In this document: positions 19,094-63,550 of the stretch, piece after piece
Numbering within the stretch: position 1 is the stretch's first letter
How the letters are laid out: each line of letters begins with the position of its first letter
From: Massilibacillus massiliensis
GTDB taxonomy: Bacteria; Bacillota; Negativicutes; FLKF01
Direction: 5' to 3'
NCBI RefSeq assembly: GCF_900086705.1
Contig: NZ_LT575483.1
Span: 2,139,894-2,203,893, forward strand
Length of the DNA: 64,000 nt
Notes under the pieces: model-generated
Told to the model about the DNA's origin: nothing
The model's input: only the letters and a program-made list of their open reading frames with translations
Database searches by the model: none
Position numbers and translations under genes: made by a program

Positions 19094-21796
19094 ATGAAGC
19101 GGATTGAGCATGTTTTTGAAATGGTGAAAAGTTTGTGCAGTGAACGACGTTCGTGTACTGGTGTAAGTACAGATGACATTGCAAATGAACTTGGGATTCA
19201 ACGATCAAATGCCTCCGGAGATTTAAATGCACTTGTAAAAGCGGGCAGATTAGAAAAAATTGAAGGAAAGCCGGTCTTATATAAACTGACACAGAAAAAT
19301 GTAAAGGATGACTATACACCGCTGGAATCTTCTATCATGGATCAAATTATTGGGGCAAATAAAAGCTTGAAAACTGCTGTACAGAAAGCAAAGGCAGCCG
19401 TTATGTATCCACCGTTGGGACTACATACCTTGTTGTTTGGGGAGACAGGCGTTGGAAAGTCTATGTTTGCAGAGTGTATTTTTCGGTATGCCAAAGCAAT
19501 TGGTCGATTAAAAGCCGATGCACCATTTGTCGCGTTTAACTGTGCGGACTATGCACATAATCCGCAGCTTTTACTTACGCAGTTATTTGGCGCGAAGAAA
19601 GGAAGTTATACAGGTGCCGAGCGAGATCGAAGCGGATTAGTAGAAAAGGCCGATCATGGAATCTTATTTTTAGATGAAGTACATCGACTCCCGCCGGAAG
19701 GGCAGGAGATGCTATTTTATTTGATTGATAAAGGTGCTTTTCGCAGTATGGGGGATGTAGAAGCCTATCAAAAAGTAGAAGTTTTGATTATTTGTGCTAC
19801 GACGGAACAGAATGATTCTGCATTGCTGCGGACTTTTACACGACGCATTCCGATGATGATTCATTTACCTCCGATCAGAGAACGGACAATGAATGAACGA
19901 TGGGAGCTGATTAAATGCTTTTTTCAAAGAGAGGCGCAATGCTTAAAGGTACCAATTGGCATTTCACCAAATTCATTGAAAGCGTTTTTGCTCTATGATT
20001 GTGTCAACAATATCGGTCAGCTAAAAAATGATATCAAACTCAGCTGTGCCAAAGCATTTTTGGATTATGTGGGCAGTAACGATAAAGTGCTGCGTGTCCA
20101 TAGTGAAGATTTACCGGAATATATTAGACGTGGTTTCGTCAAATATAAAGAACATCGCGGTGAGTTGGATAAAATCGGCGTGATGGAAGAAATCATTTTT
20201 CATCCATCACAAGATGCCTGTGTTGAGGCTCAACAGGCAGGTGCGTTTAACATTTACGAATCGTTAGAAGAGAAAATGATGGATTTAAAAGCAAAAGGGT
20301 TGAGCGAAAGTGATGTTCAGCTGATTTTGGCAATGGACATCGAAACTTACATAAAAAAATATATGATGAAATTCAGGCAGGGGAATCTGGAAGAATTATA
20401 TAAAATTGTTGACAGAAAAGTAGTTGACGTTGCACAGGAATTTTTGCGATATGTTAGTGAACGGCTAGAACGACAATATGATGATAAAATCTTATTTGGT
20501 ATGAGTATTCATATTTCGAGTACGTTGGAGCGCATCCGGGAAGGACGGGAAATTTCAAATCCTTATCTGGATGAAATACAAAAGCTATATGCAAAAGAAT
20601 TTGTAATTGCCCAATATTTTGCGGTGCTTATACAAAAAAATTTCGCGATACAGGTTCCTATGGCAGAAGTCGGATTTATTACAATGTTTTTGGTCGCGGA
20701 TGATTATATTGAAAAGACCAATACGGGGCGGGTCGGCGTAATTGTGGCAATGCATGGTGTCAGTACCGCGAGCTCAATGGCAGAGGTCGCCAATCGACTG
20801 CTAGGGGAGAAACATGTAGTGGGCTATGATATGCCTTTAGATCAAAAAACTGAAACAGCCTTGGAGAATATTACAAAACTGATTGAAGTGCATAATGAGG
20901 GACAAGGTGTTATTCTTCTTGTTGATATGGGATCATTGGTGATGTTTGGTGACATGATTTATGAACGTACTTTAGTGCCGATTAAGACAGTTGAGATGGT
21001 GAGTACACCAATGGTTTTAGAAGCGGCACGTAAATCTTTGATGCGTGTTTCTTTAAATGATATTTATTATGCAGTGACCAATTTAAGCCCGTATATCGGG
21101 CGTATGCATGGGAATGTATTTCGTGAGCAGTTGAAAGATAATGTGATTGTAACGGCATGTATTACTGGTCAGGGGACGGCGATCAAATTAAAAAATATGA
21201 TCGAAAAATCTTTGCAGGAAAATGGCCGAAAGATTGATGTTATACCCATTGAAATCGGCAGCATAAAAAATTTTGAGCGGCAGTTGGATAAGGTCAAACA
21301 GGAAAAAAATCTGGTTGCAGTTGTAAGCAGTATCAGACCACAGGATCGAAGCATTAAACATATTTCTACGAAGCAACTGATCGAGGGAGATTTGGAGCCT
21401 TTACTTATGGAAAGCATGGGCGAAGTAAGACAGACGGAGCTGGTACTGGAAAAAGTTCAGTTTATGCAAGAAGTCATTCAAGAGAATCTTAAAATTGATG
21501 GCGAAAAATTTATGCAAGCATGGAATGCATTTTATAAAAAGTTAAAAAATTATAATCTTGTATTGAGTGAAGAAGTCGGAATTGGATTGATTATGCATTT
21601 GGCTTGTGTTGTTGAAAAATTAGTAAGGGGTGAAAGCCTTGACTATACAAAACAAAGGCATATTGATGAGCGTGATAAATATGAAGCAAGTTATAAAGCT
21701 ATAGCAGATTGTCTACGCGCATTAGAGGAAAGCTTTCAAATTACATTGGATGAATATGAATATGAGAATATAGTAAAACTCATGTATTATCTGTGA
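19094..21796 (+). CDS. LevR-type sigma54 activator for the cellobiose-class PTS operon
   Basis: This 900-residue sigma54 enhancer-binding protein is controlled by PTS phosphorylation. In order: winged-helix HTH (1-70), AAA+ domain with Walker A GETGVGKS (116-123), sigma54-contacting loop GSYTGA (170-175) and Walker B ILFLDE (190-195), a PRD (about 440-540), a mannose-class IIA domain with His in AMHGVSTASS (about 555), a IIB-like domain (ACITGQGTA, about 695) and a C-terminal PRD. The loop is normally GAFTGA, so the A-to-S and F-to-Y changes are unusual. It precedes a sigma54 promoter at 21997, its likely target. Confidence 0.9.
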   Translation: MKRIEHVFEMVKSLCSERRSCTGVSTDDIANELGIQRSNASGDLNALVKAGRLEKIEGKPVLYKLTQKNVKDDYTPLESSIMDQIIGANKSLKTAVQKAKAAVMYPPLGLHTLLFGETGVGKSMFAECIFRYAKAIGRLKADAPFVAFNCADYAHNPQLLLTQLFGAKKGSYTGAERDRSGLVEKADHGILFLDEVHRLPPEGQEMLFYLIDKGAFRSMGDVEAYQKVEVLIICATTEQNDSALLRTFTRRIPMMIHLPPIRERTMNERWELIKCFFQREAQCLKVPIGISPNSLKAFLLYDCVNNIGQLKNDIKLSCAKAFLDYVGSNDKVLRVHSEDLPEYIRRGFVKYKEHRGELDKIGVMEEIIFHPSQDACVEAQQAGAFNIYESLEEKMMDLKAKGLSESDVQLILAMDIETYIKKYMMKFRQGNLEELYKIVDRKVVDVAQEFLRYVSERLERQYDDKILFGMSIHISSTLERIREGREISNPYLDEIQKLYAKEFVIAQYFAVLIQKNFAIQVPMAEVGFITMFLVADDYIEKTNTGRVGVIVAMHGVSTASSMAEVANRLLGEKHVVGYDMPLDQKTETALENITKLIEVHNEGQGVILLVDMGSLVMFGDMIYERTLVPIKTVEMVSTPMVLEAARKSLMRVSLNDIYYAVTNLSPYIGRMHGNVFREQLKDNVIVTACITGQGTAIKLKNMIEKSLQENGRKIDVIPIEIGSIKNFERQLDKVKQEKNLVAVVSSIRPQDRSIKHISTKQLIEGDLEPLLMESMGEVRQTELVLEKVQFMQEVIQENLKIDGEKFMQAWNAFYKKLKNYNLVLSEEVGIGLIMHLACVVEKLVRGESLDYTKQRHIDERDKYEASYKAIADCLRALEESFQITLDEYEYENIVKLMYYL

Positions 21797-44213: not shown

Positions 44214-44258
44214 AAATACAAAAGACCTCGCAGGGAATTTGCGAGGTCTTTTGTATTT
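44214..44258. terminator. Long bidirectional terminator
   Basis: An exact 19-bp stem (AAATACAAAAGACCTCGCA and complement, 7-nt loop) serves the converging IIC gene (+) and LevR-type gene (-) and reaches the stop codon of the latter. Confidence 0.9.
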
Positions 44259-46942
44259 TATTCATTTTGTGTTTTGATAAAGATATTAATCATTTCAATA
44301 TTGTAGGAGATTTCACTATCGGGGATAAAAACACCAAAAGAATTTTCAAGAAGTTTAAATTCTTCGCGAATTATTTTAGCTAAAAAAAGATTTTGTTGAT
44401 AAACATTTTCAAAATTATTGTAGTTTAAAGGATCGTTACGGATGACTCTCTCCAGCATAGAAATATTATGAAAGATAAATTTAACTTTGAAGCTTATATC
44501 TGCTTTTAATTGTAATCTGCTTAGAAAGGAAAGATAAATTTGATTTAAAAGTGTGTAAGCTTTGTCCGCGTCTAAAAAAGTCAGAACTGATTCTAACATT
44601 TTCAACATTTTTGTTTTATCATGCTCAAAATAGTCATAGTCTTTGCCGACTTCTGCAGTGCTCCAAGCTGTATCTTCAAGCTTTTCGGGCAGTATGGTAC
44701 TGCTGTTTCCGATCAGTTTGCTTGATATTTCTACTTCATTAACGAGTGCAGATAATGAAGTGTTTGGCATCATGGATCTGCGGGCGGCTTCTATTACCAT
44801 TGGGGTACTGACCATTTTCAGTGTCTTTGTTTTTACGCCAGCTTTTTTCTCAATAATATCACCGAGCGATGTGAGTGATCCCATATCGACTAAAAGCAGG
44901 CAGCCCTTAGGTGTATTCATTTGTTGAACAATCTGAATGGCCTTGTTTACCGTATTTTGAATGGATTCACTTAAGGGCATATTGAGTGCTTTTACATGCT
45001 TGGTTTTGAGAAGTTCATTGGCTACGTCTACCATGCTGCTGGCAGTTGTATCGCCATGTGTAACGACGAGTACACCGATAAAGTTTTTTTCACTCACCGT
45101 ATTGCTTTTTAGGGCATTTAAAAAGACGGTAATAAAAAATGCCTCTTCTTGAGGAATGGCGATAGAAAAAGAATCCTCTAATTTTTTTTTGATTTTTTGT
45201 GTGATGGAAGAATCATGATCTGAAAGATTTAAGGCATAAGGCAATTTTGTCTTATCAACAGAAATACCGTTTTTTATGCGTTCTAATAAGGTTTCAAGAT
45301 GTAGTGCCAAACTGTAGATAATTTTATTGTGTGTATGTGTGCCGGAATCTCCCAGTGTATCCTCTAAAATAGACTTGACAGTATCAATTATTTTTCCATC
45401 GATAATGGAGGTAAGTGCTAACTCAGATGGAAAATTTTCTTTTTTCTTATTTCCATAAGTGTAGCGATGAAAATAGTTTTCTACTTGTAAGTTGATATTT
45501 TTTTTCATATCAGTGATAGAAATACCTTGGTCAAAATAAGTTTTTGAAGATTTGAGGATGGTTGCGTAAAAATCCTCTTCAGTTTGGTAATCAGGAGAAG
45601 CTATGAGGTTTTGGAACAGCTGATTTGGGGTGAAATCTTGTGGATGGAATGTTACGTTTGTTAGTTTGTTTAAAATAAAAAATTCAGTTGAGTTGGCGTA
45701 TTTTTTATAAGTAGACATTTTATCATTTAAAAAATTCTTTATCATTTGGGACAACTTAATAGTTACGTGGGGCTGCTGTTCCGTGATATATTCTACCAGT
45801 GCTTTTGCACAGGTGATTTTTATGTCGTTTTTTAACTGTCCGATATTTCCTTGGCAGTCATATAATAGCAGCAATTTCATTACTTCGACGGAAACCGTGA
45901 TTGGGAGATTAATCTTTTTGGATTCTTCGGCAAAAAAGCTATAAATGAGATTCAGCCTGTCTTCAAGCGGACGGGCAGATAAATCTGGAATCAATATGGT
46001 GCAGGGGATTCGGCGCATGAATGTTGTAAGCATATTAGAATCTGGATTTTCTGTTGTAGCTAAAATTAGGCGAATATTTGCTTTTCGCAAATTATTGGTT
46101 TCTCCCAATCGTCTAAAGCTGCCACGGTCTATTAAGGAAAAGAGCATTTCTTGCCCTTCCGGAGGTAATCGGTGTACTTCGTCTAAAAACAATATACCGC
46201 CGTCCGCCTCATCAACAAGTCCTGGCTTTTCTTTATCTGCTCCGGTAAAGGCACCTTTAATATAGCCAAAAAGATAGGAAAGCAGCAGCTGTTGATTGCC
46301 TGAATAATCGGCACAGTTAAAAATGATATAAGGAGCGTTGGGCAAAAGGCATCCAGAAGCTACAGCGTATTGGTACATGAAACCGGCAAACGTAGTCTTT
46401 CCTGTGCCGGTAGAACCCAAAAGCAATGTGTGTAATCCGTTTGGTGGATAAATCATCGCGGCAATGGCTTGTTCTATTTTTTCTTTCAGACTGGTGTTAT
46501 AGCCAATAATGCCAGAAAAAATATGTTCGGCCTGTTTTTGCTGTAAGTGCTTTGGTTCTGTCAGGCTGCTAGAAGTAAATGCAGTGCTATTTCTTTGAAA
46601 AATATAGTTGCTTTCTTTTAATGTCTCCATAAATTCATTTTTAGAGGGAAATAAACATTTAGGAAAAGGCATGTTTAGCAACTTTTCTAAGAGCTCTTTA
46701 GAAAAATAAAGAACGGGTTTTCCCGCAATTTTCAAGAGCCTATTTTCCTTAAATAAAGTATTTAAATCTCGGCTGGCATTACTTCTATCGAGATTTAAGG
46801 TTTGAGAAATCGTTTCTGCTGAGCAGCCAAACTTCATGATTTCATTCATTTCATGGAGTAACTTTGCATTTGGCGTAAGATTCTGATGGGAATTTAGAAA
46901 ATCAAAAATTTGTTGTTTCTTTGTTGTATTTGATTTTTTCAT
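44258..46942 (-). CDS. LevR-type sigma54 activator lacking the IIB-like domain
   Basis: About 894 residues: HTH (HTH-like region to about 80), AAA+ with Walker A GSTGTGKT (about 175), the consensus sigma54 loop GAFTGA (about 228) and Walker B ILFLDE, then PRD1, mannose-class IIA (VVTHGDTTASSMVDVA, about 610) and a C-terminal PRD (FHNISMLERVIRND). Unlike the regulator at 19094 it lacks a IIB-like segment between IIA and the last PRD. ATG 46942 follows GGAGA; a Met two codons earlier is too close. It is divergent from the mannose-class PTS operon and should activate its sigma54 promoter. Confidence 0.9.
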   Translation of the reverse strand: MKKSNTTKKQQIFDFLNSHQNLTPNAKLLHEMNEIMKFGCSAETISQTLNLDRSNASRDLNTLFKENRLLKIAGKPVLYFSKELLEKLLNMPFPKCLFPSKNEFMETLKESNYIFQRNSTAFTSSSLTEPKHLQQKQAEHIFSGIIGYNTSLKEKIEQAIAAMIYPPNGLHTLLLGSTGTGKTTFAGFMYQYAVASGCLLPNAPYIIFNCADYSGNQQLLLSYLFGYIKGAFTGADKEKPGLVDEADGGILFLDEVHRLPPEGQEMLFSLIDRGSFRRLGETNNLRKANIRLILATTENPDSNMLTTFMRRIPCTILIPDLSARPLEDRLNLIYSFFAEESKKINLPITVSVEVMKLLLLYDCQGNIGQLKNDIKITCAKALVEYITEQQPHVTIKLSQMIKNFLNDKMSTYKKYANSTEFFILNKLTNVTFHPQDFTPNQLFQNLIASPDYQTEEDFYATILKSSKTYFDQGISITDMKKNINLQVENYFHRYTYGNKKKENFPSELALTSIIDGKIIDTVKSILEDTLGDSGTHTHNKIIYSLALHLETLLERIKNGISVDKTKLPYALNLSDHDSSITQKIKKKLEDSFSIAIPQEEAFFITVFLNALKSNTVSEKNFIGVLVVTHGDTTASSMVDVANELLKTKHVKALNMPLSESIQNTVNKAIQIVQQMNTPKGCLLLVDMGSLTSLGDIIEKKAGVKTKTLKMVSTPMVIEAARRSMMPNTSLSALVNEVEISSKLIGNSSTILPEKLEDTAWSTAEVGKDYDYFEHDKTKMLKMLESVLTFLDADKAYTLLNQIYLSFLSRLQLKADISFKVKFIFHNISMLERVIRNDPLNYNNFENVYQQNLFLAKIIREEFKLLENSFGVFIPDSEISYNIEMINIFIKTQNE

Positions 46943-47104
46943 ACACATTCTCCAGAATTTTTTAAATTATTTGATGATTTATTATAGCATAATTTGTCGA
47001 AAAAAATTACACATATGATTTATTTTATACACACAAACAGTGTAACTATAAATAAATCTATTGAAAGTATTGAAATAGCTAGGTTTGTATTTACACACAT
47101 GAGT

Positions 47105-47119
47105 TGGCATTGCATTTGC
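47105..47119 (+). promoter_or_regulatory. Sigma54 promoter of the mannose-class PTS operon
   Basis: TGGCATTGCATTTGC fits TGGCAC-N5-TTGC with one change, 54 nt before the first gene. TTACAC and GTGTAA half-sites lie about 60-90 nt upstream and may be part of the activator site. Confidence 0.78.
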
Positions 47120-47172
47120 ATTGTATATGGACAAACAAATTTAATACAGCATGATAATTTGAGGTGTGATGG

Positions 47173-48099
47173 ATGAAAGTGTTGGTTACAGCAAACAGTT
47201 TCGGTAAATACGATGGACAAGCAAGAACGACCTTGGAGCGGCATGGATTTGAACGCTTTGATAATCCATACGGACGCATCATGAATGAAAAAGAATTTTC
47301 AAGCGCGATACAGGGGATGGATATCGTTATTTTAGGAACTGAACTATTGGATAAGGAGGTGATTGAAAAAGCAGACACTCTCAAATTTGTTTCACGCTAT
47401 GGCGTGGGGACTGACAATATGGATTTGGCGGAGCTTAAGCGTAGAAACATTGGTTTTGCAGTTGCTAGAAATTGCAATAGTCAGGCGGTCGCTGATTATA
47501 CAATAGGTTTGATGTTGGATGCACTGCGTGGAATTAGTTTGAGTACGCGTAATTTGTATGAAGGAAAATGGGAAAAGGTTGTTGGGCCGGATTTATATAA
47601 AAAAACCGTTGGTATCATTGGGTTAGGTTCCATTGGAATGGGCGTTGCTAAAAGGTTGTCGGGGTTTGATTGCAAGGTATTGGGCTATGATGTGCGTTTT
47701 GATCATGCAGGTTGTCAGCACTATCACGTACAGGAAGCTTCTTTGGAAGAAATTTATCAGCAGGCCGATATTATTACCCTACATTTGCCGGCGCTGCCTA
47801 ACGATAAAGCTTTAATCGGAGAAAAGGAAATTTGCCGTATGAAGCATAATGTCGTTTTGATCAATACAGCACGCACTTCTCTGATCGATGCGGACGCGCT
47901 TATTGCGGGGCTTCAAAGTGGGAAAGTCTTTGCTGGGGCAAGCGATGCCCAGCTTCGTTTTACACAAATTGATCAACGATATCATAACCTGGATCGTTTT
48001 ACCCTTACCCCACATAATGCAGCGGTTAGCTTGGAAGCAAGCATTAAGATGTCTGAGATGGCAGTGGAAAATATTTTGAACTACTTTCAGGTGAGATGA
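47173..48099 (+). CDS. D-2-hydroxyacid dehydrogenase (phosphoglycerate-dehydrogenase-like)
   Basis: The 308-residue NAD-dependent enzyme has the Rossmann motif GIIGLGSIGMGVAKRL (about 145), INTARTSLIDADAL (about 235) and the catalytic His in LTPHNAAVS (about 280). There is no C-terminal ACT domain, so it is not the regulated SerA. It opens the sigma54 operon and lies 13 nt from the KDPG-type aldolase gene, so it probably oxidises or reduces a sugar-acid intermediate in this pathway. The ribosome site (GAGGTGTGATGG) is present. Confidence 0.85.
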   Translation: MKVLVTANSFGKYDGQARTTLERHGFERFDNPYGRIMNEKEFSSAIQGMDIVILGTELLDKEVIEKADTLKFVSRYGVGTDNMDLAELKRRNIGFAVARNCNSQAVADYTIGLMLDALRGISLSTRNLYEGKWEKVVGPDLYKKTVGIIGLGSIGMGVAKRLSGFDCKVLGYDVRFDHAGCQHYHVQEASLEEIYQQADIITLHLPALPNDKALIGEKEICRMKHNVVLINTARTSLIDADALIAGLQSGKVFAGASDAQLRFTQIDQRYHNLDRFTLTPHNAAVSLEASIKMSEMAVENILNYFQVR

Positions 48100-48112: not shown

Positions 48113-48739
48113 ATGGATAAATTAGATAGTTTATTGCAGCTTAAAAAAGATAAATTAGTTTCTGTAATTAGAACAGATGCAGACTCGGCCTTAAAAAAAA
48201 TCGATGCCATTATAAGCGGAGGCATTCATTTTATTGAAGTTACACTGACTATGCCGGATTCGATTTATATTTTGGAAAAAGCAAAGCAAAGGTATGCGGG
48301 AACAGGCGCAGTGATTGGAGCGGGAACCGTTTTAGATGCAGTTTCGGCAAGAATTGCCCTTTTGCATGGAGCTGATTTTATTGTAGCGCCTTCTTTTGAT
48401 ACAGACACTGCGAAACTTTGTAATTTATATAGAAAAGCATATATCCCGGGGATACAATCTGCAAATGATATAAAAGATTGCTTAGCGTCTGGGGTGGATG
48501 TAATGAAGTTGTTCCCGGGAAATCAATTCACCAAAAGCATCATCAAAGATTTAAAGGGGCCATTTCCACAAGCACATTTCATGGTTACTGGACAAATCAA
48601 TCTAACGAGTATGGCTGAGTGGTTCAAAGCGGGTGCATTTGCTGTTGGAATTGGCGGGGAACTGACCAATTACAGTGCGGAAGAGGGTGATTTAATTCGG
48701 GAAAAAACATTGCAGTTTGTTGAACAGGTAAAAATATAA
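48113..48739 (+). CDS. KDPG/KHG-type aldolase
   Basis: The 208-residue class I aldolase has the family signatures FIEVTLTMPD, IGAGTVLDA and the Schiff-base lysine in GVDVMKLFPGNQF (about residue 134). It would split a 2-keto-3-deoxy sugar acid (phosphate) to pyruvate and an aldehyde. GAGGAGG precedes the ATG. Its place behind a 2-hydroxyacid dehydrogenase and ahead of a PTS suggests the imported sugar is at least partly oxidised to a sugar acid. Confidence 0.87.
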   Translation: MDKLDSLLQLKKDKLVSVIRTDADSALKKIDAIISGGIHFIEVTLTMPDSIYILEKAKQRYAGTGAVIGAGTVLDAVSARIALLHGADFIVAPSFDTDTAKLCNLYRKAYIPGIQSANDIKDCLASGVDVMKLFPGNQFTKSIIKDLKGPFPQAHFMVTGQINLTSMAEWFKAGAFAVGIGGELTNYSAEEGDLIREKTLQFVEQVKI

Positions 48740-48755
48740 CGAAGAGGTGGAAAAA

Positions 48756-49229
48756 ATGAAGAATATTGTTTTTACAAGAGTAGATGATCGTTTAATTCAT
48801 GGGCAGGTCATGACGGGCTGGATTCAATATACGGGTGCTTCTAAAGTGGTGGTTATAGACGATAAGGTAGCCAAGGACATGTTTATGGCAAGTATCATGC
48901 AAGCGTCTATGCCGGCAAAAATTAAGTTGAAGATTCTTGGAATTGATGATGCAGCTAGTTATTTACAAAAAGATGCCGATGATGAAAAGTTATTTTTACT
49001 GGTGAAAACGCCAATTGTGCTGGCTGAATTGATAAAAAAGGGCGTTGACATTAAGCAGATCGGTGTAGGCGGAATGGGCGCTAAAGCAGATCGGACAAAA
49101 CTATACAGAAATATTGCTGCAAGTGAGGAGGAAAGAGCAGTTCTCAAAGAGCTGCTTCAGCAAGGAATCGACGCGTTTATTCAAGTCATTCCAGATAGTG
49201 ATCGCGTAGACTTAAAAAGCGTATTGTAA
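48756..49229 (+). CDS. PTS mannose-class IIB subunit
   Basis: This 157-residue cytoplasmic subunit begins MKNIVFTRVDDRLIHGQVMTGW, where the His of RLIHGQ is the phosphorylation site. It transfers phosphate from IIA to the sugar at IIC/IID. GAAGAGGTGG precedes ATG 48756; a GTG at 48747 is within the ribosome site. It is third in the operon, directly before IIC. Confidence 0.92.
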   Translation: MKNIVFTRVDDRLIHGQVMTGWIQYTGASKVVVIDDKVAKDMFMASIMQASMPAKIKLKILGIDDAASYLQKDADDEKLFLLVKTPIVLAELIKKGVDIKQIGVGGMGAKADRTKLYRNIAASEEERAVLKELLQQGIDAFIQVIPDSDRVDLKSVL

Positions 49230-49255: not shown

Positions 49256-50020
49256 ATGGAAGTAAGTTTATTTCAAGCTTGTATTATTGGTCTTTTATAT
49301 TATATGACTGTTGCGGCTCCGCCTTGGCTAGGCGGGTTAGGCAGTGTTTCGCTGCGGCAGCCGATTGTAGCGGGCACGATTGTTGGTATTATTCTGGGAC
49401 AGCCGTTAGAGGGCTTAATCATTGGCGCTACAATCAACACCTTGTTTTTGGGTTTTATTTCAGCGGGCGGTACTGTAGCCAGTGAACCAGGTATCGCGGG
49501 TATTATCGGTACAGCGTTGACGATTATGACGAGTTCTTCACCAGAACTTGCAGTTTCATTAGCGGTTCCGTTTGGTTTATTGGGGACGTTGATTTGGAAT
49601 GTGCGTATGACGGTAAATAGTATATTTGTTCATTGGTTAGATGAGCTGGCAGCTAAAGGCGATTTTAAGAAAATGCTGTTTGTTGAGTTTGTGCCAGCAC
49701 AGCTTATGACTTTACTGCTTTCGGCAGTTCCAGTCGCAGCGATCGTATATTTTGGCGGCGATGCTGTCAGTCGTATTCTTGAAATGTTAACGGGAACACC
49801 GTTATTTATGTTAAAAACGATTGGCGGAATACTTCCTGCACTTGGGATCGCAATGACCTTGCGTATGATTAGTAATCGTAAGGGCATTTATCCGGCATTT
49901 CTTTTAGGATTTTTCGTATTGTCTTATGCAAAAATTCCAATTTTAGTACTTGCAATTTTCGCAACAATTTTTGCTTGGTTCTATGTTTCTGTTAAATTCA
50001 ATAAAGAGGAGGAAGCGTGA
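49256..50020 (+). CDS. PTS mannose-class IIC subunit
   Basis: The 254-residue polytopic permease subunit shows the ManY pattern (GGLGSVSLRQPIVAGTIVGIILGQPLEGLIIGATINTLFLGF). It forms the channel with IID. AGGAGG precedes the ATG, and its stop codon overlaps the IID start (ATGA), so the two are translationally coupled. Confidence 0.92.
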   Translation: MEVSLFQACIIGLLYYMTVAAPPWLGGLGSVSLRQPIVAGTIVGIILGQPLEGLIIGATINTLFLGFISAGGTVASEPGIAGIIGTALTIMTSSSPELAVSLAVPFGLLGTLIWNVRMTVNSIFVHWLDELAAKGDFKKMLFVEFVPAQLMTLLLSAVPVAAIVYFGGDAVSRILEMLTGTPLFMLKTIGGILPALGIAMTLRMISNRKGIYPAFLLGFFVLSYAKIPILVLAIFATIFAWFYVSVKFNKEEEA

Positions 50021-50850
50021 TGAGTGAAGAGTTGAAGAATGAAAAAAGTCTGACAAACAGCGACTTGAATAAATCCTTCTGGTTATGGTGCTGTATGGCG
50101 CAGGCCACGTATAGTTTCGAAAGATTACAAGCACCGGGCTTTGTGGCGGCAATGATTCCGGCGATAGAGCGGTTGTATCCTGATGATGAAGAAGCGCGTA
50201 AAGCGGCACTTAAACGTCATATGGAATTTTTCAATACAGAGCCATGGCTTACAGGACCGGGGGTTGTTGGTATTACGCTTTCTATGGAAGAAGAACGTGC
50301 CAATGGACTGCCAATTGAAGATGAGGATATCAATGGGGTAAAAACTGGTTTAATGGGGCCGATGGCAGGGATCGGTGATACGCTTCGGCAAGGTACCTTG
50401 ATTCCGATTATCGGATCAATTGCGATTACTTTAGGACTCTCGGGCAATTTTGTAGCACCCATTTTTTATATGATACTCACGTTAGCGTTAAATCATGGTG
50501 TGTCGTATATATTTTTTAAGAAAGCTTATCAAAAGGGTAAAGAAGGGATTAGTGATATCTTCCAAAGTGGACAGCTGGAAAAGTTCATGACGTTTGCAAC
50601 ACTGGTTGGGGCTACCACGATTGGTGGCTTGGCCGCAACTACGGTGAAAGTGCAAACCGGTGCTGTCTTGCTGCTGGGAGAAAATAAATTGGTCATTCAA
50701 AAACTATTGGATAATATTCTGATCAATTTGATTCCATTATTGGTTATTTTCTTTACGGTTTGGTTATTCAAAAAGAAATTGAGTGCTTCTAAAATTTTAG
50801 TGGTTTTGATCGCATTAGGCGCATTCGGTGTTTTACTAGGAGCTTTTTAA
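50020..50850 (+). CDS. PTS mannose-class IID subunit
   Basis: The 276-residue ManZ-type protein has the features LNKSFWLWCCMAQATYSFERLQAPGF, FFNTEPWLTGPGVVGITLSMEEERANG and GLMGPMAGIGDTLRQGTLIPI, then C-terminal membrane segments. ATG 50020 follows GAGGAGG and overlaps the IIC stop by one base. It completes the membrane part of the transporter. Confidence 0.92.
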   Translation: MSEELKNEKSLTNSDLNKSFWLWCCMAQATYSFERLQAPGFVAAMIPAIERLYPDDEEARKAALKRHMEFFNTEPWLTGPGVVGITLSMEEERANGLPIEDEDINGVKTGLMGPMAGIGDTLRQGTLIPIIGSIAITLGLSGNFVAPIFYMILTLALNHGVSYIFFKKAYQKGKEGISDIFQSGQLEKFMTFATLVGATTIGGLAATTVKVQTGAVLLLGENKLVIQKLLDNILINLIPLLVIFFTVWLFKKKLSASKILVVLIALGAFGVLLGAF

Positions 50851-50877
50851 CAAGTGAGTGAGATAGGAGATGTCAAA

Positions 50878-52059
50878 GTGAAAGCATTGATTTTAGGGGC
50901 GGGACGAATTGGTCGTGGCTTTGTAACAGGATTACTATGGAAAAATGAAGTGGATATTACGTTCTTTGAGTATAATGATGCGCTTGTAAAAAGTATGAAT
51001 GAAAGAAAGAGTTATACAATTCATGTATTGGGAGATGAATCGAAGAATACAGTTGTGCATGGCTATCAAGCCTATTCTATTGCAGAGCAGGAAGCCTTAG
51101 TACGTGAATGGGAGAGCGCGGATTTTATTTTTACTGCTGTTGGTGGGAAAAATTTGACGACAGTTGCTAAATTATTGGCAGACGCTTTTCAGGCTTCGGC
51201 GAAACCAGAGGGAATGTATTATAAAAATATTGTGACCTGTGAGAATTGGATAGAGCCAGCAAGTAAGCTCCAAGCCGCTATTTTGGATGCATTGCCTGAA
51301 GGCAGCAGAGAAGCATTTGTTAAACATATTGGTGTCAGTGAGTCGGTTGTTATGGCGACCGGCGCAGCTGCTCCCCCAAATACAGATTTAAAGAATCCAG
51401 TAGACACGTGGGTACAAGATTTTTGGTATCTGCCTGTTGATCGAGAACGAATTTTAGGAGAGGTTCCTGCTTGGCAGTATTTTGACTTTATTGACGGTTT
51501 TGCAGATCTTTTGCAGCAAAAAATTTATACGAATAATACAAGTGTAGCGTTGATTGCTTATTTGGGATATCTAAAGGGACATGTCTATGTCGCTGATGCA
51601 GCCAATGATCCGGAAATTGTGCCGATATTGGAAGAGGCGTATAGGGAAATTAATGCAGCATTAATTCATGGACTCGGGGTAACTGAAGAGAGTCAACTGA
51701 AATTTTCTAAACGAGCAAAAGAAAAGTACCAGGATCGAAATATTATTGATCTAGTCGTCCGAATTGCCAGAGATCCGATCCGCAAGCTGAAGCCTTCAGA
51801 TCGTTTAATCGGCCCTGCGCAGTTGGCACTTAAAACGGGGACAACGCCAAAAGCGATTGCACTAGCGATCGCGGCAGCGCTGTATTTTGATTATGAAGAA
51901 GATGAAGATGCAGTAAACTTAACAAACATGAGAAAAGAACATGGAGCTCGAAAGGTCTTACAGGAGATTTGCGAGATTTCAGAAGAAGATGTGCTTTATA
52001 AACTTATTTTAGACAGTAGGCAAATTCTTAAAGACAAAGGATGGCTAAAAGGAGAATAA
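50878..52059 (+). CDS. Mannitol-1-phosphate dehydrogenase-like protein, first copy
   Basis: The polypeptide (about 394 residues) begins with the Rossmann motif MKALILGAGRIGRGF, as MtlD does, and has the family C-terminal alpha-helical domain. In the polyol-dehydrogenase motif K-x4-N-x2-H it reads KIYTNNTSV, so Lys and Asn remain but the His is Val. It would be expected to act on a polyol phosphate or hexuronate, but the missing His argues for altered chemistry. GTG 50878 has AGGAGA 7 nt upstream; the frame opens at 50854. It overlaps no gene and precedes a paralogue by 4 nt. Confidence 0.82.
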   Translation: MKALILGAGRIGRGFVTGLLWKNEVDITFFEYNDALVKSMNERKSYTIHVLGDESKNTVVHGYQAYSIAEQEALVREWESADFIFTAVGGKNLTTVAKLLADAFQASAKPEGMYYKNIVTCENWIEPASKLQAAILDALPEGSREAFVKHIGVSESVVMATGAAAPPNTDLKNPVDTWVQDFWYLPVDRERILGEVPAWQYFDFIDGFADLLQQKIYTNNTSVALIAYLGYLKGHVYVADAANDPEIVPILEEAYREINAALIHGLGVTEESQLKFSKRAKEKYQDRNIIDLVVRIARDPIRKLKPSDRLIGPAQLALKTGTTPKAIALAIAAALYFDYEEDEDAVNLTNMRKEHGARKVLQEICEISEEDVLYKLILDSRQILKDKGWLKGE

Positions 52060-52063
52060 ATCA

Positions 52064-53224
52064 ATGGGAATGAAAAAAGCGGTTGTAATTGGCGCTGGAC
52101 AAGCGGGGCGTGGATACATTGGACGGTTGCTGGCTGAGATTGGGTATGAAATCATTTTTATCGAAAAGAAACAAGCGCTGGTAGATTTATTATGTACAGA
52201 TGGACATTTTTCAGTGCATTTTTATGATAAAGATAGAACTCCGGTGATTGTAGAAGATTATAAGGCTTTACAGCTTGAGGATGCAGAAGTTGACCGGGTA
52301 ATAAAGGAAGCAGATTTTATTTTTACAGCAACGGGGGAGCAAAATCTACCCGAAGTAGCGAAGCGAATACAAAAATCTTTAGCAGAGCGGCTATCGCCTG
52401 TGGTGATGATTACTTGTGAGAATGGAATTAATCCAGGCAAACGTTTGGCAGAAGCTTTAGAAGCGGCTGGTGGATTTGACAAAAGCAAAATTTTCATATC
52501 GCAAACGGCGGAGTTTTGTTCTACGGTAAATTTGGTTCGTACGAGATTAGATATACTTTCTCAAAACGAAAATTTCTTTCCTTATGATGCAGATGGTTAT
52601 GCAGGCCAATTAGAAATTAGAGGCGCAGAGCCAGTTCATGAGTTTGAGAAATTTTTAAAACGAAAGATTTATACCTATAACTGTTTAGCTGGGCTCATTT
52701 CCTATTGTGGATATGTGAAGGGCTATCAAGTGTATGGGGAGGCGGCCAATGACGAAGAAATTTCCTGGCTGATGGATGTATTGCTACAAGAATTAAATCC
52801 AGCTCTTGCAAAATATTTTGATATCTCCGAACAAGAGCAAGTGGAATTCTCACAAAAAGCGTTAGATAAATTTAAAAATAAAAATATTCTCGATTATATC
52901 TTGAAAAACGGTAGAGCACCTAGACGTAAACTCGGACCGACGGAAAGAATCTTCGCGCCGTTACGAATCATAGAGGCGAATCAAGGAGATTATGATATCC
53001 TTTGCTTTAATGCGGCTGCAGCTTTATGCTATTGGGAAGAGCAAGCGATGCAGGGCGCAGAGCCAGCGATGGAACAGCCGACAAATAAAATACTTTGCGA
53101 AATTTTGCATGTAGCTGAAGATGATGCAGTGATAAAAAAAGTTAACTTTTATTTAGAATGTATTCACCAAAACCGCGCTGCTATTTCTATTCGAGCAATA
53201 TTAAATGAAAAACTAAAATTATAG
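52064..53224 (+). CDS. Mannitol-1-phosphate dehydrogenase-like protein, second copy
   Basis: The 386-residue paralogue starts with VVIGAGQAGRGYIGRLL and keeps the MtlD layout. The family motif reads KIYTYNCLA, so the His is Ala. It shares many positions with the copy just upstream (for example KIYT.N, GY.KG.VY..AAND, FSK/FSQ.A..K...NI.D) yet differs widely, so this is an old duplication. The two may form a hetero-oligomer or catalyse successive steps such as oxidation at one carbon and reduction at another. GGAGA precedes the ATG. Confidence 0.82.
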   Translation: MGMKKAVVIGAGQAGRGYIGRLLAEIGYEIIFIEKKQALVDLLCTDGHFSVHFYDKDRTPVIVEDYKALQLEDAEVDRVIKEADFIFTATGEQNLPEVAKRIQKSLAERLSPVVMITCENGINPGKRLAEALEAAGGFDKSKIFISQTAEFCSTVNLVRTRLDILSQNENFFPYDADGYAGQLEIRGAEPVHEFEKFLKRKIYTYNCLAGLISYCGYVKGYQVYGEAANDEEISWLMDVLLQELNPALAKYFDISEQEQVEFSQKALDKFKNKNILDYILKNGRAPRRKLGPTERIFAPLRIIEANQGDYDILCFNAAAALCYWEEQAMQGAEPAMEQPTNKILCEILHVAEDDAVIKKVNFYLECIHQNRAAISIRAILNEKLKL

Positions 53225-53242: not shown

Positions 53243-53653
53243 ATGGTAAAAATTTTGATTGTTACGCATGGACCATTGGGAGAAGCATTGATAGAAACTG
53301 CGGATTTAATTTTGGGTAAGACGAATCATACGACTGCTTTCGGATTGTATCATGGAGATAATATTGAGTTACTGCAAAGAAGAATAGAAGAATTTGTACA
53401 AGCGCAGGATGAGGGCGATGGAATCTTGATGCTGACAGATTTGTTGGGTGGAAGCCCTTGTAACAAAATAGCCCTTGCAATAAAAGCCTTGGAGAATACA
53501 AATAAAGTGGAATGTATCGTCGGCGTCAATCTGCCAATCTTGCTGGAAGCGATTTCTATGCAAAATGCGATGACTTTAAAAGAACTAGCGGAGCATTGCA
53601 AAATGCAAGGAACAAACAGTATTTTAAGCTTAAGAGAAAAGTTTGAATTTTAA
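53243..53653 (+). CDS. PTS mannose-class IIA subunit
   Basis: This 136-residue IIA has the phosphorylated His in IVTHGPLGEAL (residue 9) and the family LTDLLGGSPCNKIA stretch. It is separated from IIB-IIC-IID by two enzyme genes, which is unusual but functional in an operon. GGAGAGA precedes the ATG. It phosphorylates IIB and may also signal to the divergent LevR-type regulator. Confidence 0.92.
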   Translation: MVKILIVTHGPLGEALIETADLILGKTNHTTAFGLYHGDNIELLQRRIEEFVQAQDEGDGILMLTDLLGGSPCNKIALAIKALENTNKVECIVGVNLPILLEAISMQNAMTLKELAEHCKMQGTNSILSLREKFEF

Positions 53654-53673: not shown

Positions 53674-54333
53674 ATGGAAAAATTATTATGCCCTTCTATG
53701 ATGTGTGCGAATTATGAGAATTTAGAACGAGAAGTCATGTTGCTGGAACAAGCAGGCATTGATATCTTTCATATAGATATCATGGATGGGGATTTTGTTC
53801 CCAATATAGGAATGGGATTGCAAGATACGGCACTTATTTGCAAAGTAGCAAATAAACCGGTAGATGTGCATCTCATGATGCAAAGACCAGGCCGTTATAT
53901 TAAAATGTTTGCAGATTTGGGGGTGTCTATCCTCTATATCCATCCGCAGACAGAAACGCAGCCGATCAAAGCGCTGCAGGAGATTCGAGCACTTGGTATG
54001 AAGGCTGGAATTGCGGTCAGTCCGGAGTTTGGTATTGCCGCAATCCATCCGATGTTGTCCATCGTGGACTATGTCCTTGTGATGACAGTCGTTCCTGGGT
54101 TTGCGGGCCAGAGCTATTTAGATTTTGTCGATGATAAAATAGAGATGTTATTGAGTCTGCGCAAGGACAAAAGCAAATATGATTATAAGATCATAATTGA
54201 TGGTGCCTGCTCACCGGAAAAAATTAAAACATTAAGCGAGAAAGGCGTAGATGGTTTTGTATTAGGAACATCCGCACTTTTTCAAAAATCAAGAGATTAT
54301 GCTAGTCTTCTTGAGGATTTAAGAAGTATGTAA
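53674..54333 (+). CDS. Ribulose-phosphate 3-epimerase family enzyme
   Basis: The 219-residue TIM barrel has the metal-binding residues in FHIDIMDGDFVPN, VDVHLMM and IIDGACSP, and the VVPGFAGQSY phosphate loop. Canonical Rpe has DGGI where this has DGAC, so it may act on a different 3-keto pentulose or hexulose phosphate (AlsE-like enzymes share the fold). ATGAGGAG precedes the ATG. It ends the sigma54 operon before a palindromic terminator. Confidence 0.88.
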   Translation: MEKLLCPSMMCANYENLEREVMLLEQAGIDIFHIDIMDGDFVPNIGMGLQDTALICKVANKPVDVHLMMQRPGRYIKMFADLGVSILYIHPQTETQPIKALQEIRALGMKAGIAVSPEFGIAAIHPMLSIVDYVLVMTVVPGFAGQSYLDFVDDKIEMLLSLRKDKSKYDYKIIIDGACSPEKIKTLSEKGVDGFVLGTSALFQKSRDYASLLEDLRSM

Positions 54334-54737: not shown

Positions 54738-54792
54738 GTAATAAGTAGGAGTGGATACCATTTACAAATATTATATTAGGAGGTATATCCCC

Positions 54793-55995
54793 TTGATCAG
54801 TGTGGGAATTGACGTTTCAAAAGGTAAGAGTACCGTCTGTATTTTAAAGCCTTATGGCGAAATTATTCAGCGTCCATTTGAAATTATGCACACGGTAGAA
54901 GAGTTAACATCATTGGTAAAAACAATTAAGAACTTTAACGAGGAAACACGCGTTGTATTGGAGGCAACTGGCTATTACCATCTGCCCGTTCTAGCGTTTA
55001 TGAAAGAAAACGGTATCTTTGTTTCGGTAGTTAATCCTTTAGTTATGAAAAAATATATCAATGTTTCATTGCGTAAAGCAAAGACGGATAAAATAGACGC
55101 TGGCAAAATTGCTAACTTCGGTATTGACCATTGGTTTGATTTAACCAATTACCGTCCTGATGAAAAAATATATGATGAATTAAAAATACTGGGACGTCAG
55201 TACATTCAATTCATGGGAATGTATGTAAAAACAAAGAGTACTCTTACTTGTATGCTTGATCGTACAATGCCAGGAATCAAGGACTTACTTAAAAGTTCTT
55301 CTGATGATTTTTCTCGTAATAAAATTGGAGATTTTGCTTTTAGATTTTGGCATTATGACATAATCACTAACAAAGGAGAAAAACAATTTGTAGATACATA
55401 TGTGAAGTGGGCAAATAAAAAGGGATACCAAGCTAATGAGAAAAAAGCACATCAAATATATGCTTTAGCTCAAACAGGTATCCCAACATTGCCTTCCAGT
55501 ACGCCATCGACCAAAATGCTCGTACAAGAAGCTGTCAAGGTACTTCTCCAAACAGAGAAGTCCTTACACAATATTTTAGCACGAATGAATGAGTTAGCAA
55601 AGAGATTGAAAGAATACAGAATTGTCCGTGCAATGCCGGGTGTCGGTGAAAAGTTAGCACCACGTTTGATTGCCGAAATCGGAGATGTACGTAGGTTTCA
55701 TAACGGAAGTTCTTTAATTGCATATGCAGGTTTAGATACACCACCTTATGAATCCGGACGATTTACAGCAACAAAAAGAAAAATTTCTAAGCGAGGCTCG
55801 TCTATTTTACGTAAAACAGGATATGAAGTTATGAAGTGCTTAAAGACAGTCAAACCAGATTATGATAATGCTGTATACAAATATATCCTCAAGAAAGAGT
55901 CAGAAGGTAAACCGAAGAAGGTTGCTAAAATCGCGGGGTTGAACAAATTTCTAAGAATTTATTATACACGTGTAAAAGAGACAATAGCAGGTTAA
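54793..55995 (+). CDS. IS110-family transposase (DEDD)
   Basis: About 400 residues: an N-terminal RuvC-like DEDD domain (SVGIDVSKGKSTV with first Asp, VLEATGYYH with Glu, RKAKTDKIDAGKIA with Asp residues) and a C-terminal Tnp domain with the conserved serine region (MPGVGEKLAPRLIAEIGDVRRF, SSLIAYAGLDTPPYESG). I prefer TTG 54793, which has AGGAGG 9 nt upstream; the frame opens at 54751 inside the RNA-rich region. There is no frameshift, so it is probably active with its bridge RNA. Confidence 0.9.
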   Translation: MISVGIDVSKGKSTVCILKPYGEIIQRPFEIMHTVEELTSLVKTIKNFNEETRVVLEATGYYHLPVLAFMKENGIFVSVVNPLVMKKYINVSLRKAKTDKIDAGKIANFGIDHWFDLTNYRPDEKIYDELKILGRQYIQFMGMYVKTKSTLTCMLDRTMPGIKDLLKSSSDDFSRNKIGDFAFRFWHYDIITNKGEKQFVDTYVKWANKKGYQANEKKAHQIYALAQTGIPTLPSSTPSTKMLVQEAVKVLLQTEKSLHNILARMNELAKRLKEYRIVRAMPGVGEKLAPRLIAEIGDVRRFHNGSSLIAYAGLDTPPYESGRFTATKRKISKRGSSILRKTGYEVMKCLKTVKPDYDNAVYKYILKKESEGKPKKVAKIAGLNKFLRIYYTRVKETIAG

Positions 55996-60200: not shown

Positions 60201-60438
60201 GTTATGATAAGTGAATGAATAGCAATTGATGAATTTTAGTATCTTATGTTTAGGAATGTAAGTATTTGTATATTCAATAACTATACATTTTGTTCATTAC
60301 AAAATGATCAAAAATAAGATATTCACAATTTGTATAAAATTTTCTGTAGGGAAGGCGAATTCACTGTTTCCTGTGTAGTGTAGATTGGTAAAAGTATGGC
60401 ACAAATTTTGCATATAAAATTAAAAAAAAGGAGATTTC
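60201..60438. other. Gap before the third LevR-type gene
   Basis: AT-rich upstream region of the regulator. I see no gene or consensus promoter that I can support. Confidence 0.4.
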
Positions 60439-63324
60439 ATGATGGATATACAAACGAAGCTCATTAATATCATTAATACTGAAAATAAAAAAGATCCGCT
60501 GACTGATATTCAAATTGCTAAATTCTTGAATACTACACGTGAAAATATAACAAATATCAGAAAAGAATTGAATATCAATAATTCCAGACAACGACGATAT
60601 CCATATTTAAAAGCTGCAATCTTAGCGATAAAAAAGAATGCAAAAACGATTAATATTTCAGATATAACAAGAGAGTTATTAGAACAAGGTTTTGATATCT
60701 CAAGGAGAGTCGTTGAAGAAGTCTTGTCGCGAGAAGAAGTGGAGCTTGAACCGACAGAAGAAAAAACAGAAAAAAGAGATCCTTTTGCAACGTTGATTGG
60801 CCATAATGGCAGTTTGAAAAATGCGATAGAACAGGCCAAATCGGCGATTATGTACCCGCCAAAAGGTTTGCCAACGTTGATTGTCGGTGAAAGTGGCGTT
60901 GGTAAGAGCTTATTTTCAAAAAAAATGTATGATTTTGCACGGCAAGAAGGCATTTTATATGAGAATTCGAGCTTGGTTGTATTTAATTGCGCTGATTATG
61001 CTGATAATCCCCAACTATTGCTTTCGTTGTTATTTGGTTATAAAAAAGGTGCGTTTACTGGAGCGGTGAATGATAGTCCGGGTTTGGTTGAAGAAGCAGA
61101 TGGTGGAATGTTATTTTTAGATGAAATACATCGGCTGCCGCCTAAAGGTCAGGAAATTTTGTTTTCCATCCTAGATCGAGGCTGTTTTAGACGGCTTGGT
61201 GAAACCAATGTGGAACGAAAAGTAAGTGTTATGCTGATTGGAGCAACAACAGAGAATATTGAGACGAATTTATTGCTTACATTCAGAAGGCGTATACCTA
61301 TGGTGATCTACTTGCCTTCGTTAAGAGATCGTTTTTTGAAAGAGAAGGTAGATTTAATTTATCGAATTTTTCAACAAGAATGTAATCGAATCAACTCAAA
61401 AATTTTTGTAGATAAAAATGTAGTGGAAATTTTAGCTTTAAATAAATTTAGTGGAAATATTGGACAATTAAAAAATATGATTCAGGTATTGTGTGCAAGA
61501 TCTTTTATGCAGGTGATCAATAAGAAAGAAGACCGATTGGTTTCTATTGATGTAAATGAGATATTAAAGTTGATGGATTCTTTCAATGAAACGTCTTTAT
61601 TAGATGGGAATTATTCTGAGATAAGAAAATATTTAAATAATTTAATGCTAATTCCATTTAAATGCAATCATTTATCTATTGATGAAGATATAGAAAGAGA
61701 TAACTATGTTGAACATGATATTTATAGAAGTATTGAAGAAAAATATTACGATTTAAAATTATTAAACTTACCAGATAGTGAAACCGAAAATATCTTGTGG
61801 GCTTTTATTTTAAATAATTTTACGAACTTAAAATTCAATATGAATAAACAGCAAGATGCACTTTCCATGAATGATTTATACAGTTTTGTTGGACAAAATA
61901 TTGTACGTGCAGTGAAACAGTTGATGAAACAGGTCATGGAAAAAGAACCAAATGGCGAAATCAATAAACATGCCTTTAAATATTTGGCGATTCATCTAGA
62001 TGAAGCAATCAAGCGAATTCGCCTCAATCAAAAAATTATTAATATCAATCTTGAGAAAATTAAAAAAGAATTTGCCAAAGAGTATGCAGTCTGTTTAGAA
62101 TTTGCTAAGAAGGTTGAAGAGAGTGAAGGGGTAAAAATTCCTGCGGATGAAGTTGGGTTTATTACTTTGTATCTCAAATCTGCGCTGAGTCAAGATACAT
62201 TGAAGAAAAGAGTCGGATTGATCATGATTTCACATGGCTATATCGCGACTGAAACTGTAAAGGTCATTAAAGAACTTTTAGGTACGAATTTTCCAATCGC
62301 AATTGATATGCCATTAAATGAAAAGCCGATTCATATTTATAATAAGGCGATTGAACTGGCAAAAGTCATCGATCAAGGAAGAGGCGTATTGTTTTTAGTA
62401 GATATGGGCTCATTGAGTAATATTGGTGATATCGTATACAATCAGACCAATATAAAAGCAAAAACTTTAGATCGAGTCGATGTCGTGCTTGCACTTGAGG
62501 CTACAAGACGCGTATCCTTGGGGGAGGATACTTTAGAAGAAATTTATTTTTATTTGAAAAAAGATAAGTTCGAATATCTGTATGTCAATGAAAAAGAAAG
62601 CGACCAAAAACCGGATCTTGTTGTCACCATTTGTCTGACTGGGGAAGGGAATGCAAAACAAATCAGCCGTATGATTGAGAGTAAATATAAAGATTTACCT
62701 TGCCATGCAATCAGTGCGATGGATGAGCTTTTGGTCACGAAAATTACAGAATTGCAAAAGGACTATCATGTGCTCGTGGTTGGAACGATTAATCCGAAAA
62801 TTCCGGGAATATGCTTTATTGATTATGATGAAAATCTGTTGAAAAATATTGATATTCATCTATCTGCAAAAAAAGAATTGCAAAACGTGCAGCAACATCA
62901 TCGAATGATTGATCAAGATTTAATGATCTTTGAACCGGAAATTTACTTTAAATCGGATTTGTTAGAATATATTTGTTCATTGTTAATTAACAAAGGGTAT
63001 GTAGAAAAAGAATATTTGCAATCTGTTTTAGACAGAGAAGCGCTTTTACCGACATTTACTGAAGGTAATACAGCTGTTCCACATGGAAATTCTATTGGTG
63101 TAAATCGGACGAGTTTTGTATTTGTCAAACTTAAAAATCCAATTGATTGGGGCGTTGGAAATGTTAATTTTGTCTTTATGCCAGTATTTAAATCAACCGA
63201 TAAAGAAAATGTAAAAGACATGCTTAAAATTTTGCGCGATCATGTGTTTATGACAAAGATAAAGGGGTGTGTAGATAAAGAGAGTTTCCAGACAATTATT
63301 TTGGACAAGCTTGCTGCAATGTAG
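60439..63324 (+). CDS. LevR-type sigma54 activator with a fused C-terminal IIA (Fru/Gat class) domain
   Basis: The 961 residues comprise an N-terminal HTH (about 1-110), AAA+ with Walker A GESGVGKS (about 155), sigma54 loop GAFTGA (about 205), PRD1, a mannose-class IIA domain (MISHGYIATETVKVI, about 598), a IIB-like domain (ICLTGEGNAKQI, about 733) and, in place of the last PRD, a type-2 IIA domain (about 835-961) with phosphorylatable His in TAVPHGNS. The protein would thus read PTS status through its own IIA. GGAGATT precedes the ATG. It is followed by a sigma54 promoter and a galactitol-type IIA gene. Confidence 0.88.
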   Translation: MMDIQTKLINIINTENKKDPLTDIQIAKFLNTTRENITNIRKELNINNSRQRRYPYLKAAILAIKKNAKTINISDITRELLEQGFDISRRVVEEVLSREEVELEPTEEKTEKRDPFATLIGHNGSLKNAIEQAKSAIMYPPKGLPTLIVGESGVGKSLFSKKMYDFARQEGILYENSSLVVFNCADYADNPQLLLSLLFGYKKGAFTGAVNDSPGLVEEADGGMLFLDEIHRLPPKGQEILFSILDRGCFRRLGETNVERKVSVMLIGATTENIETNLLLTFRRRIPMVIYLPSLRDRFLKEKVDLIYRIFQQECNRINSKIFVDKNVVEILALNKFSGNIGQLKNMIQVLCARSFMQVINKKEDRLVSIDVNEILKLMDSFNETSLLDGNYSEIRKYLNNLMLIPFKCNHLSIDEDIERDNYVEHDIYRSIEEKYYDLKLLNLPDSETENILWAFILNNFTNLKFNMNKQQDALSMNDLYSFVGQNIVRAVKQLMKQVMEKEPNGEINKHAFKYLAIHLDEAIKRIRLNQKIININLEKIKKEFAKEYAVCLEFAKKVEESEGVKIPADEVGFITLYLKSALSQDTLKKRVGLIMISHGYIATETVKVIKELLGTNFPIAIDMPLNEKPIHIYNKAIELAKVIDQGRGVLFLVDMGSLSNIGDIVYNQTNIKAKTLDRVDVVLALEATRRVSLGEDTLEEIYFYLKKDKFEYLYVNEKESDQKPDLVVTICLTGEGNAKQISRMIESKYKDLPCHAISAMDELLVTKITELQKDYHVLVVGTINPKIPGICFIDYDENLLKNIDIHLSAKKELQNVQQHHRMIDQDLMIFEPEIYFKSDLLEYICSLLINKGYVEKEYLQSVLDREALLPTFTEGNTAVPHGNSIGVNRTSFVFVKLKNPIDWGVGNVNFVFMPVFKSTDKENVKDMLKILRDHVFMTKIKGCVDKESFQTIILDKLAAM

Positions 63325-63480: not shown

Positions 63481-63495
63481 TGGCACGGTTCTTGC
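63481..63495 (+). promoter_or_regulatory. Consensus sigma54 promoter of the galactitol-class PTS operon
   Basis: TGGCACGGTTCTTGC matches TGGCACG-N4-TTGC exactly, 56 nt before the IIA gene, and is the best of the three -24/-12 promoters here. Confidence 0.92.
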
Positions 63496-63550
63496 TTAAT
63501 AGTAAAGTGTAAAGATTTATTCCTTAAGAATTGAGAAAGGAGGATATGAA

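Follow-up and report, generated by a model that had tools for sequence, protein, structure and literature searches.

Two adjoining genes of Massilibacillus massiliensis encode relatives of mannitol-1-phosphate 5-dehydrogenase (MtlD), designated Q1 and Q2, that both lack the histidine of the family motif and form an apparently undescribed paired variant inside a known superfamily. Our prediction, modelled on SorE and SorD, is that the two are probably NAD(H) oxidoreductases catalysing consecutive steps in the conversion of a phosphorylated polyol or ketose. This reading draws on sequence-based features (the fold, the catalytic triad and phosphate site, a single clade, pairing, coupled residue states and gene contexts), from which we infer activity, cofactor, direction, step order and substrate. 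No description of the tandem family was found in a literature search of titles and abstract openings, with subscription papers mostly outside the search, and this is weak evidence of absence.

The window, the whole 64,000-nucleotide stretch of DNA that was analysed, contains Q1 (401 aa, GTG start) at 50854..52059 and Q2 (386 aa) at 52064..53224, both on the + strand and separated by four bases from the Q1 stop to the Q2 start. The open reading frames and Pfam thus bear out the two tandem MtlD-like genes proposed earlier, although the start noted then, 50878, lies inside Q1 and is not its first base. Both proteins exceed the gathering scores of PF01232 and PF08125 (Q1 85.4 and 85.4 bits, Q2 65 and 72.5 bits), which places them in the mannitol dehydrogenase superfamily. 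Most of their NCBIfam matches are MtlD models, yet every MtlD equivalog cutoff is missed, the best such model giving 263.9 bits for Q1 and 154 bits for Q2 against a cutoff of 356. The AlphaFold2 model of Q1 has a pLDDT of 93.4 and its best PDB match is 3h2z (Shigella flexneri MtlD; TM 0.86), with 5jnm (Staphylococcus aureus MtlD) at 0.80; the Q2 model has a pLDDT of 95.5 and the same two structures as top matches, at TM 0.81 for 3h2z and 0.78 for 5jnm, 5jnm being listed best (all values query-normalised). A search of PHROGs gave no useful match.

The pair lies within a rightwards-transcribed operon that begins with a SerA-like D-2-hydroxyacid dehydrogenase of 308 aa (47173..48099; PF02826/PF00389) and a KDPG/KHG-aldolase-like protein (48113..48739; PF01081), followed by the sorbose/mannose-family PTS components IIB (48747..49229; PF03830) and IIC (49256..50020; PF03609) and a mannose-family IID (50017..50850; PF03613), then Q1, Q2, a mannose-family IIA (53243..53653; PF03610) and an epimerase-like gene (53674..54333; PF00834), all on the + strand. 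The last resembles ribulose-phosphate and allulose-6-phosphate 3-epimerases, its best solved relatives being 2fli (Rpe) and 3ct7 (AlsE). A divergent gene at 44258..46948 on the - strand encodes a LevR/DagR-type sigma-54-dependent PTS regulator (PF00158, PRD and EIIA-man domains) whose best NCBIfam match, DagR, scores 518.5 bits, under the cutoff of 1400. Pattern matching finds a sigma-54-type -24/-12 promoter-like site, TGGCATTGCATTTGCA, with one mismatch at 47105..47120 on the + strand, one of four such sites in the window where 2.14 are expected; a similar site occurs between the regulator and IIB genes at two Enterococcus loci (L117 and L095). The window contains three LevR-type sigma-54-dependent PTS regulators altogether (19094-21796, 44258-46948 and 60439-63324), and the sigma-54 promoter consensus is matched exactly at 60397-60412, upstream of the gene for the 961-aa regulator, and at 63481-63496, upstream of a PTS EIIA gene.

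In HMMER alignments the MtlD motifs KLFTLNTGH (3h2z) and KLLTVNTGH (5jnm) fall on KIYTNNTSV in Q1 (codons K223-V231, 51520..51546, + strand) and KIYTYNCLA in Q2 (codons K201-A209, 52664..52690, + strand). As originally predicted, Lys and Asn persist and the His is replaced by Val (V231) in Q1 and Ala (A209) in Q2, and neither protein matches the K-x4-N-x2-H signature. Rossmann motifs (GAGRIGRGF in Q1, GAGQAGRGY in Q2), a CEN motif and the phosphate-site Arg and Lys residues are present in both. An intact MtlD with the motif KLFTVNTGHA is encoded in the same genome about 28 kb outside the window, and the His is found in 48/48 MtlD-type control proteins, which were retrieved regardless of that residue. 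The UxaB/UxuB uronate reductases and mannitol 2-dehydrogenases of the long-chain branch share the superfamily and the K-x4-N element with Q1 and Q2, but they are longer, use unphosphorylated substrates and, unlike Q1 and Q2, keep the His (KVRILNGAHT in this genome's two copies). A single frame of about 1000 codons at L003:1-2997 (G000:C6, near 1831000) joins tagaturonate-reductase-like to altronate/galactarate dehydratase domains (PF01232, PF08125, PF08666, PF04295 and PF20629).

The account of S. aureus MtlD in PMC6623548 gives Asn119, Lys200 and Asn205 as the catalytic triad and groups His208 with the mannitol-binding residues, as it does His303 of the Pseudomonas fluorescens enzyme ('mannitol-binding'); Arg287 and Arg294 bind the phosphate, with a lesser role for Arg283, and the substitutions R287S and R294F strongly reduce activity (PMC6623548). 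Q1 and Q2 share with the two solved MtlD enzymes the two-domain fold, the Asn-Lys-Asn triad and, by transfer from the S. aureus enzyme, the phosphate-site residues R283, R287, K288 and R294 (S. aureus numbering), and at the Arg280 position Q1 has Arg and Q2 has Lys. Both have Glu at the Asp31 position, an acidic residue that fits NAD as cofactor. The proteins depart from MtlD in identity (about 24-28% in the structural alignments), in forming a pair, at the His position, at N10 (Arg in Q1, Gln in Q2) and in the loss of the MtlD-invariant D-R-x-x-P segment from both. At positions not imposed by the DNA search pattern described below, the 180 His-less proteins among the matches listed are near-uniform, with Asn119 and K288 in 180/180 and R287 and R294 in 179/180.

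No conserved replacement for the missing residue was identified when the alignment columns of both groups were scanned for a His elsewhere in the site (among the matches listed, with the groups labelled from motif letters in agreement with the 125-row tree below): the best His column of the Q1 group reaches 74% and is Gly in Q1 of the window, and the Q2 group has no column at 50%. A different proton relay had been suggested, but it is unnecessary given the triad published for S. aureus MtlD, in which His208 is a substrate-binding residue (PMC6623548). With this triad and the phosphate-binding Arg and Lys residues kept, neither lost catalysis nor a new proton relay need be invoked, and the retained residues point to phosphorylated substrates. 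The Lys would serve as acid/base and the two Asn residues would build the oxyanion hole, the roles published for these residues in MtlD, and we infer that the former His site is a substrate-contact position in Q1 and Q2.

In the genomes searched from its own phylum and class the pair has no close relatives. Searches matched Q1 in 43 of 398 genomes of the phylum and Q2 in 118 of 380 genomes of the class, full-length matches outside this genome do not exceed 35% identity, and the motif, read in the loci listed (30 for Q1 and 20 for Q2, some of them from this genome), contains His in every case outside the window. The pair would thus be a newcomer or a lone survivor in its phylum and class, and an IS110-family transposase gene immediately past the operon (54751-55995), taken with the missing close relatives at class level, is consistent with horizontal arrival. 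Back-translated Q2 peptides yielded 91 pattern stretches in genome contigs, none of them from a relative, and plasmid records gave 27 matches, every one below 60% identity and mostly annotated mtlD. A scan of species genomes with a DNA pattern designed for the motif without His found at least 119 stretches, of which 118 among the 119 listed encode MtlD-like proteins. This pattern fixes three motif residues (Lys, Thr and Asn) and excludes His, Gln, Pro and some Leu and Arg codons by design, and its His-permitting form caught ordinary MtlD genes only in part; the residue counts, drawn from the matches listed, are therefore no census.

Among the matches listed, relatives with 49-55% identity occur in Enterococcus, Tetragenococcus, Erysipelotrichaceae and some Clostridia, and the His-less clade spans several phyla with a near-invariant triad and phosphate site. 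Most of the loci listed contain both genes of the pair. The Q1-type gene precedes the Q2-type gene in all 69 loci listed with both at full length, the window included, and across these loci the identities to Q1 and Q2 co-vary (r = 0.92; permutation maximum 0.27), which speaks to co-inheritance only. Pfam shows a His-less MtlD-like domain and an FGGY kinase joined in one protein in both a Poseidoniaceae archaeon (L070) and an acidobacterium (L077), and seven further proteins resemble kinase-MtlD fusions in length (L085, L096, L121, L131, L134, L137 and L144).

Among 228 proteins, with the His-less ones drawn from the matches listed, the His position is occupied by His in the 48 controls and otherwise by Asn (85), Ser (72), Ala (11), Val (9), Cys (2) or Tyr (1). 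A quickly computed tree of 125 of these separates the His from the His-less rows with support 100 and requires six residue-state changes, the minimum possible. A second tree by a similarly quick method, built from a random draw after leaving out the long-branch or odd rows L097, L080, L104 and L114 and with two His-bearing tagaturonate/fructuronate-reductase-like proteins as outgroup, again places the His-less rows in one clade with support 100. Because all His-less proteins form one clade in both trees, a single loss of the His probably preceded the Q1/Q2 duplication. The parallel loss in adjacent paralogues envisaged by the original prediction is not supported in view of this clade-wide state; what the two genes did undergo together is a later change, in the same loci, from Asn to Val or Cys in Q1 and from Ser to Ala in Q2. 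Q1-type proteins mostly have Asn and Q2-type proteins mostly Ser, with one apolar sub-lineage, including the window, that combines Val or Cys with Ala; the 75 loci among the matches listed in which both states are readable comprise 66 Asn/Ser, seven Val/Ala and two Cys/Ala pairs, and none is mixed. The simplest history is one His loss, then the duplication, then the joint apolar change, which on the tree is one paired event and not repeated convergence. As a single event, the coupling of Val with Ala could be coincidental.

The 66 loci among the matches listed in which both genes were called divide into 42 with an FGGY kinase, eight with a mannose-family PTS, none with both and 16 with neither, as counted by crude gene calling with a greedy choice of open reading frames over spans of up to 8 kb. 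These two contexts appear to represent alternative phosphorylation routes. The FGGY kinases are XylB-like but below cutoff. Two of the loci counted as having neither system have other PTS gene clusters in common (L129 and L160); at L129, in Oceanobacillus, the pair comes after a mannitol-PTS-like IICB, which scores 565.5 bits where the cutoff is 589, together with a regulator and a IIA gene. Further neighbours are Rpe-like, transaldolase/FSA-like and zinc alcohol dehydrogenase proteins, the Rpe-like protein being missing from most relatives among the matches listed. Taken together, the PTS, FGGY kinase, SDR, Rpe-like and LevR-type regulator neighbours point to catabolism of phosphorylated polyols or ketoses. 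A glycoside hydrolase family 2 protein is encoded at L162:1557-3779, in a cluster that recurs by the kinase-type pair in gut Clostridia at 14 loci among the matches listed; a glycoside is perhaps the source of the substrate there.

A functional parallel is the L-sorbose operon, whose SorE belongs to the zinc alcohol dehydrogenases and whose SorD, an SDR, oxidises sorbitol-6-phosphate. Like the window, it combines a sorbose/mannose-family PTS (IIA, IIB, IIC and IID in the window) with two dehydrogenases. SorE converts L-sorbose-1-phosphate to D-sorbitol-6-phosphate, according to the account in PMC12817954. At L174 and L164 the resemblance extends further, with a Q2-type gene beside a mannose-family PTS and a sorbitol-6-phosphate-dehydrogenase-like SDR (scoring 329.6 and 340.3 bits where the cutoff is 304) and no Q1; such an SDR also lies beside the Q1/Q2 pair at L158. 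The likeness to the L-sorbose route thus consists of a PTS and two dehydrogenases, one of them apparently replaceable by the SDR, and is a functional analogy only, as Q1 and Q2 are both MtlD-like, unlike SorE and SorD, and neither a SorE-type zinc reductase nor a SorD-type SDR is present among the ten window proteins scanned with Pfam.

In the proposed pathway the adjacent mannose-family PTS would import and phosphorylate a ketose or polyol, one of the two enzymes would probably reduce the incoming ketose-phosphate, and the other would re-oxidise the polyol-phosphate at a different position or with different stereochemistry, recycling NAD(H) so that the route is redox-neutral overall; the Rpe-like epimerase would then pass the product to central metabolism. 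That Q1 and Q2 are active NAD(H) enzymes with phosphorylated substrates we consider highly likely, and it is reasonably probable that they catalyse consecutive steps of one pathway; that they move the carbonyl in the fashion of SorE and SorD, as opposed to epimerising one carbon, is a plausible idea to which we incline somewhat less than to its converse. A changed reaction or substrate, also raised in the original prediction, is well supported at the level of sequence by the clade-wide His replacement, the D-R-x-x-P loss, the further lineage-specific changes around the site and the non-mtl contexts. The Val/Ala sub-lineage suggests a shared intermediate without the polar contact found in Asn/Ser pairs.

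The KDPG-aldolase-like and 2-hydroxyacid-dehydrogenase genes, like the GarL/HpaI-like, RraA-like and Ldh_2 neighbours at L167, L172 and L165, stand outside this scheme and may reflect a sugar-acid or second substrate. Were the pair to act on sugar acids in phosphorylated form, such as ketoaldonates or compounds resembling uronates, with final cleavage by the KDPG-aldolase-like protein and action of the 2-hydroxyacid dehydrogenase at C2, the two genes would be accounted for, both in the window and at several Erysipelotrichales and Clostridia loci, and so would the GarL/HpaI-like and RraA-like aldolases at some loci; uronate reductases also belong to the same superfamily. However, the aldolase and dehydrogenase genes are absent from the stretches examined at the PTS-type Enterococcus loci L095 and L117 and at most FGGY loci, no dehydratase was found, and the mannitol-PTS-like and sorbitol-6-phosphate-dehydrogenase-like neighbours indicate polyols. 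This alternative seems unlikely, and it is retained because the main scheme leaves the two genes unexplained.

The heteromer with shared sites suggested originally, taken as an obligate one whose sites are shared or complement each other, would agree with the adjoining genes, fixed order, co-inheritance and coupled residue change, but is disfavoured and looks improbable: the cofactor, triad and phosphate sites are complete in each protein, the S. aureus MtlD site is described in PMC6623548 as complete within one chain, and the partners also occur apart. Three of six genomes searched (those of L174, L164 and L114) have a Q2-type protein without Q1, their best Q1 matches having 34%, 32% and 32% identity, and a separate Q2-type gene is absent from 7/7 genomes with a single Q1-like protein, several of which are MAGs and perhaps incomplete. 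It is very doubtful that Q1 and Q2 are ordinary mannitol-1-phosphate 5-dehydrogenases that tolerate the change, since the shared family, fold and predominance of MtlD models are set against the missed cutoffs, the normal MtlD elsewhere in the genome, replacement of both the His and D-R-x-x-P in both proteins, and the presence of two genes instead of one. We give hardly any credence to degenerate MtlD copies without useful function; the residue conserved in all controls is lost, but the proteins occur in several phyla, in fixed operons and open frames, with a near-invariant triad and phosphate site and high-confidence models. Two sequential oxidoreductases are the preferred reading.

A more specific form of this reading is speculative and would not be our first expectation: a duplicated His-less MtlD ancestor may have given rise to a two-enzyme module of opposite regio- or stereospecificity that passes one phosphorylated intermediate between its members, with the coupled Asn/Ser versus Val/Ala code setting which intermediate is accepted and the apolar pair serving a substrate that lacks the corresponding hydroxyl, such as a polyol phosphate with a deoxy or other modification, outside all known pathways. 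MtlD-derived names could mislead for this clade, as MtlD models are the top matches of its members in the NCBI annotation library, though below the cutoffs. If the preferred reading is true, gut Clostridia, Erysipelotrichales, Enterococcus, Tetragenococcus and M. massiliensis would share an unrecognised polyol or ketose route, and the coupled Asn/Ser and Val/Ala states would offer a compact and testable specificity hypothesis in a well-studied superfamily.
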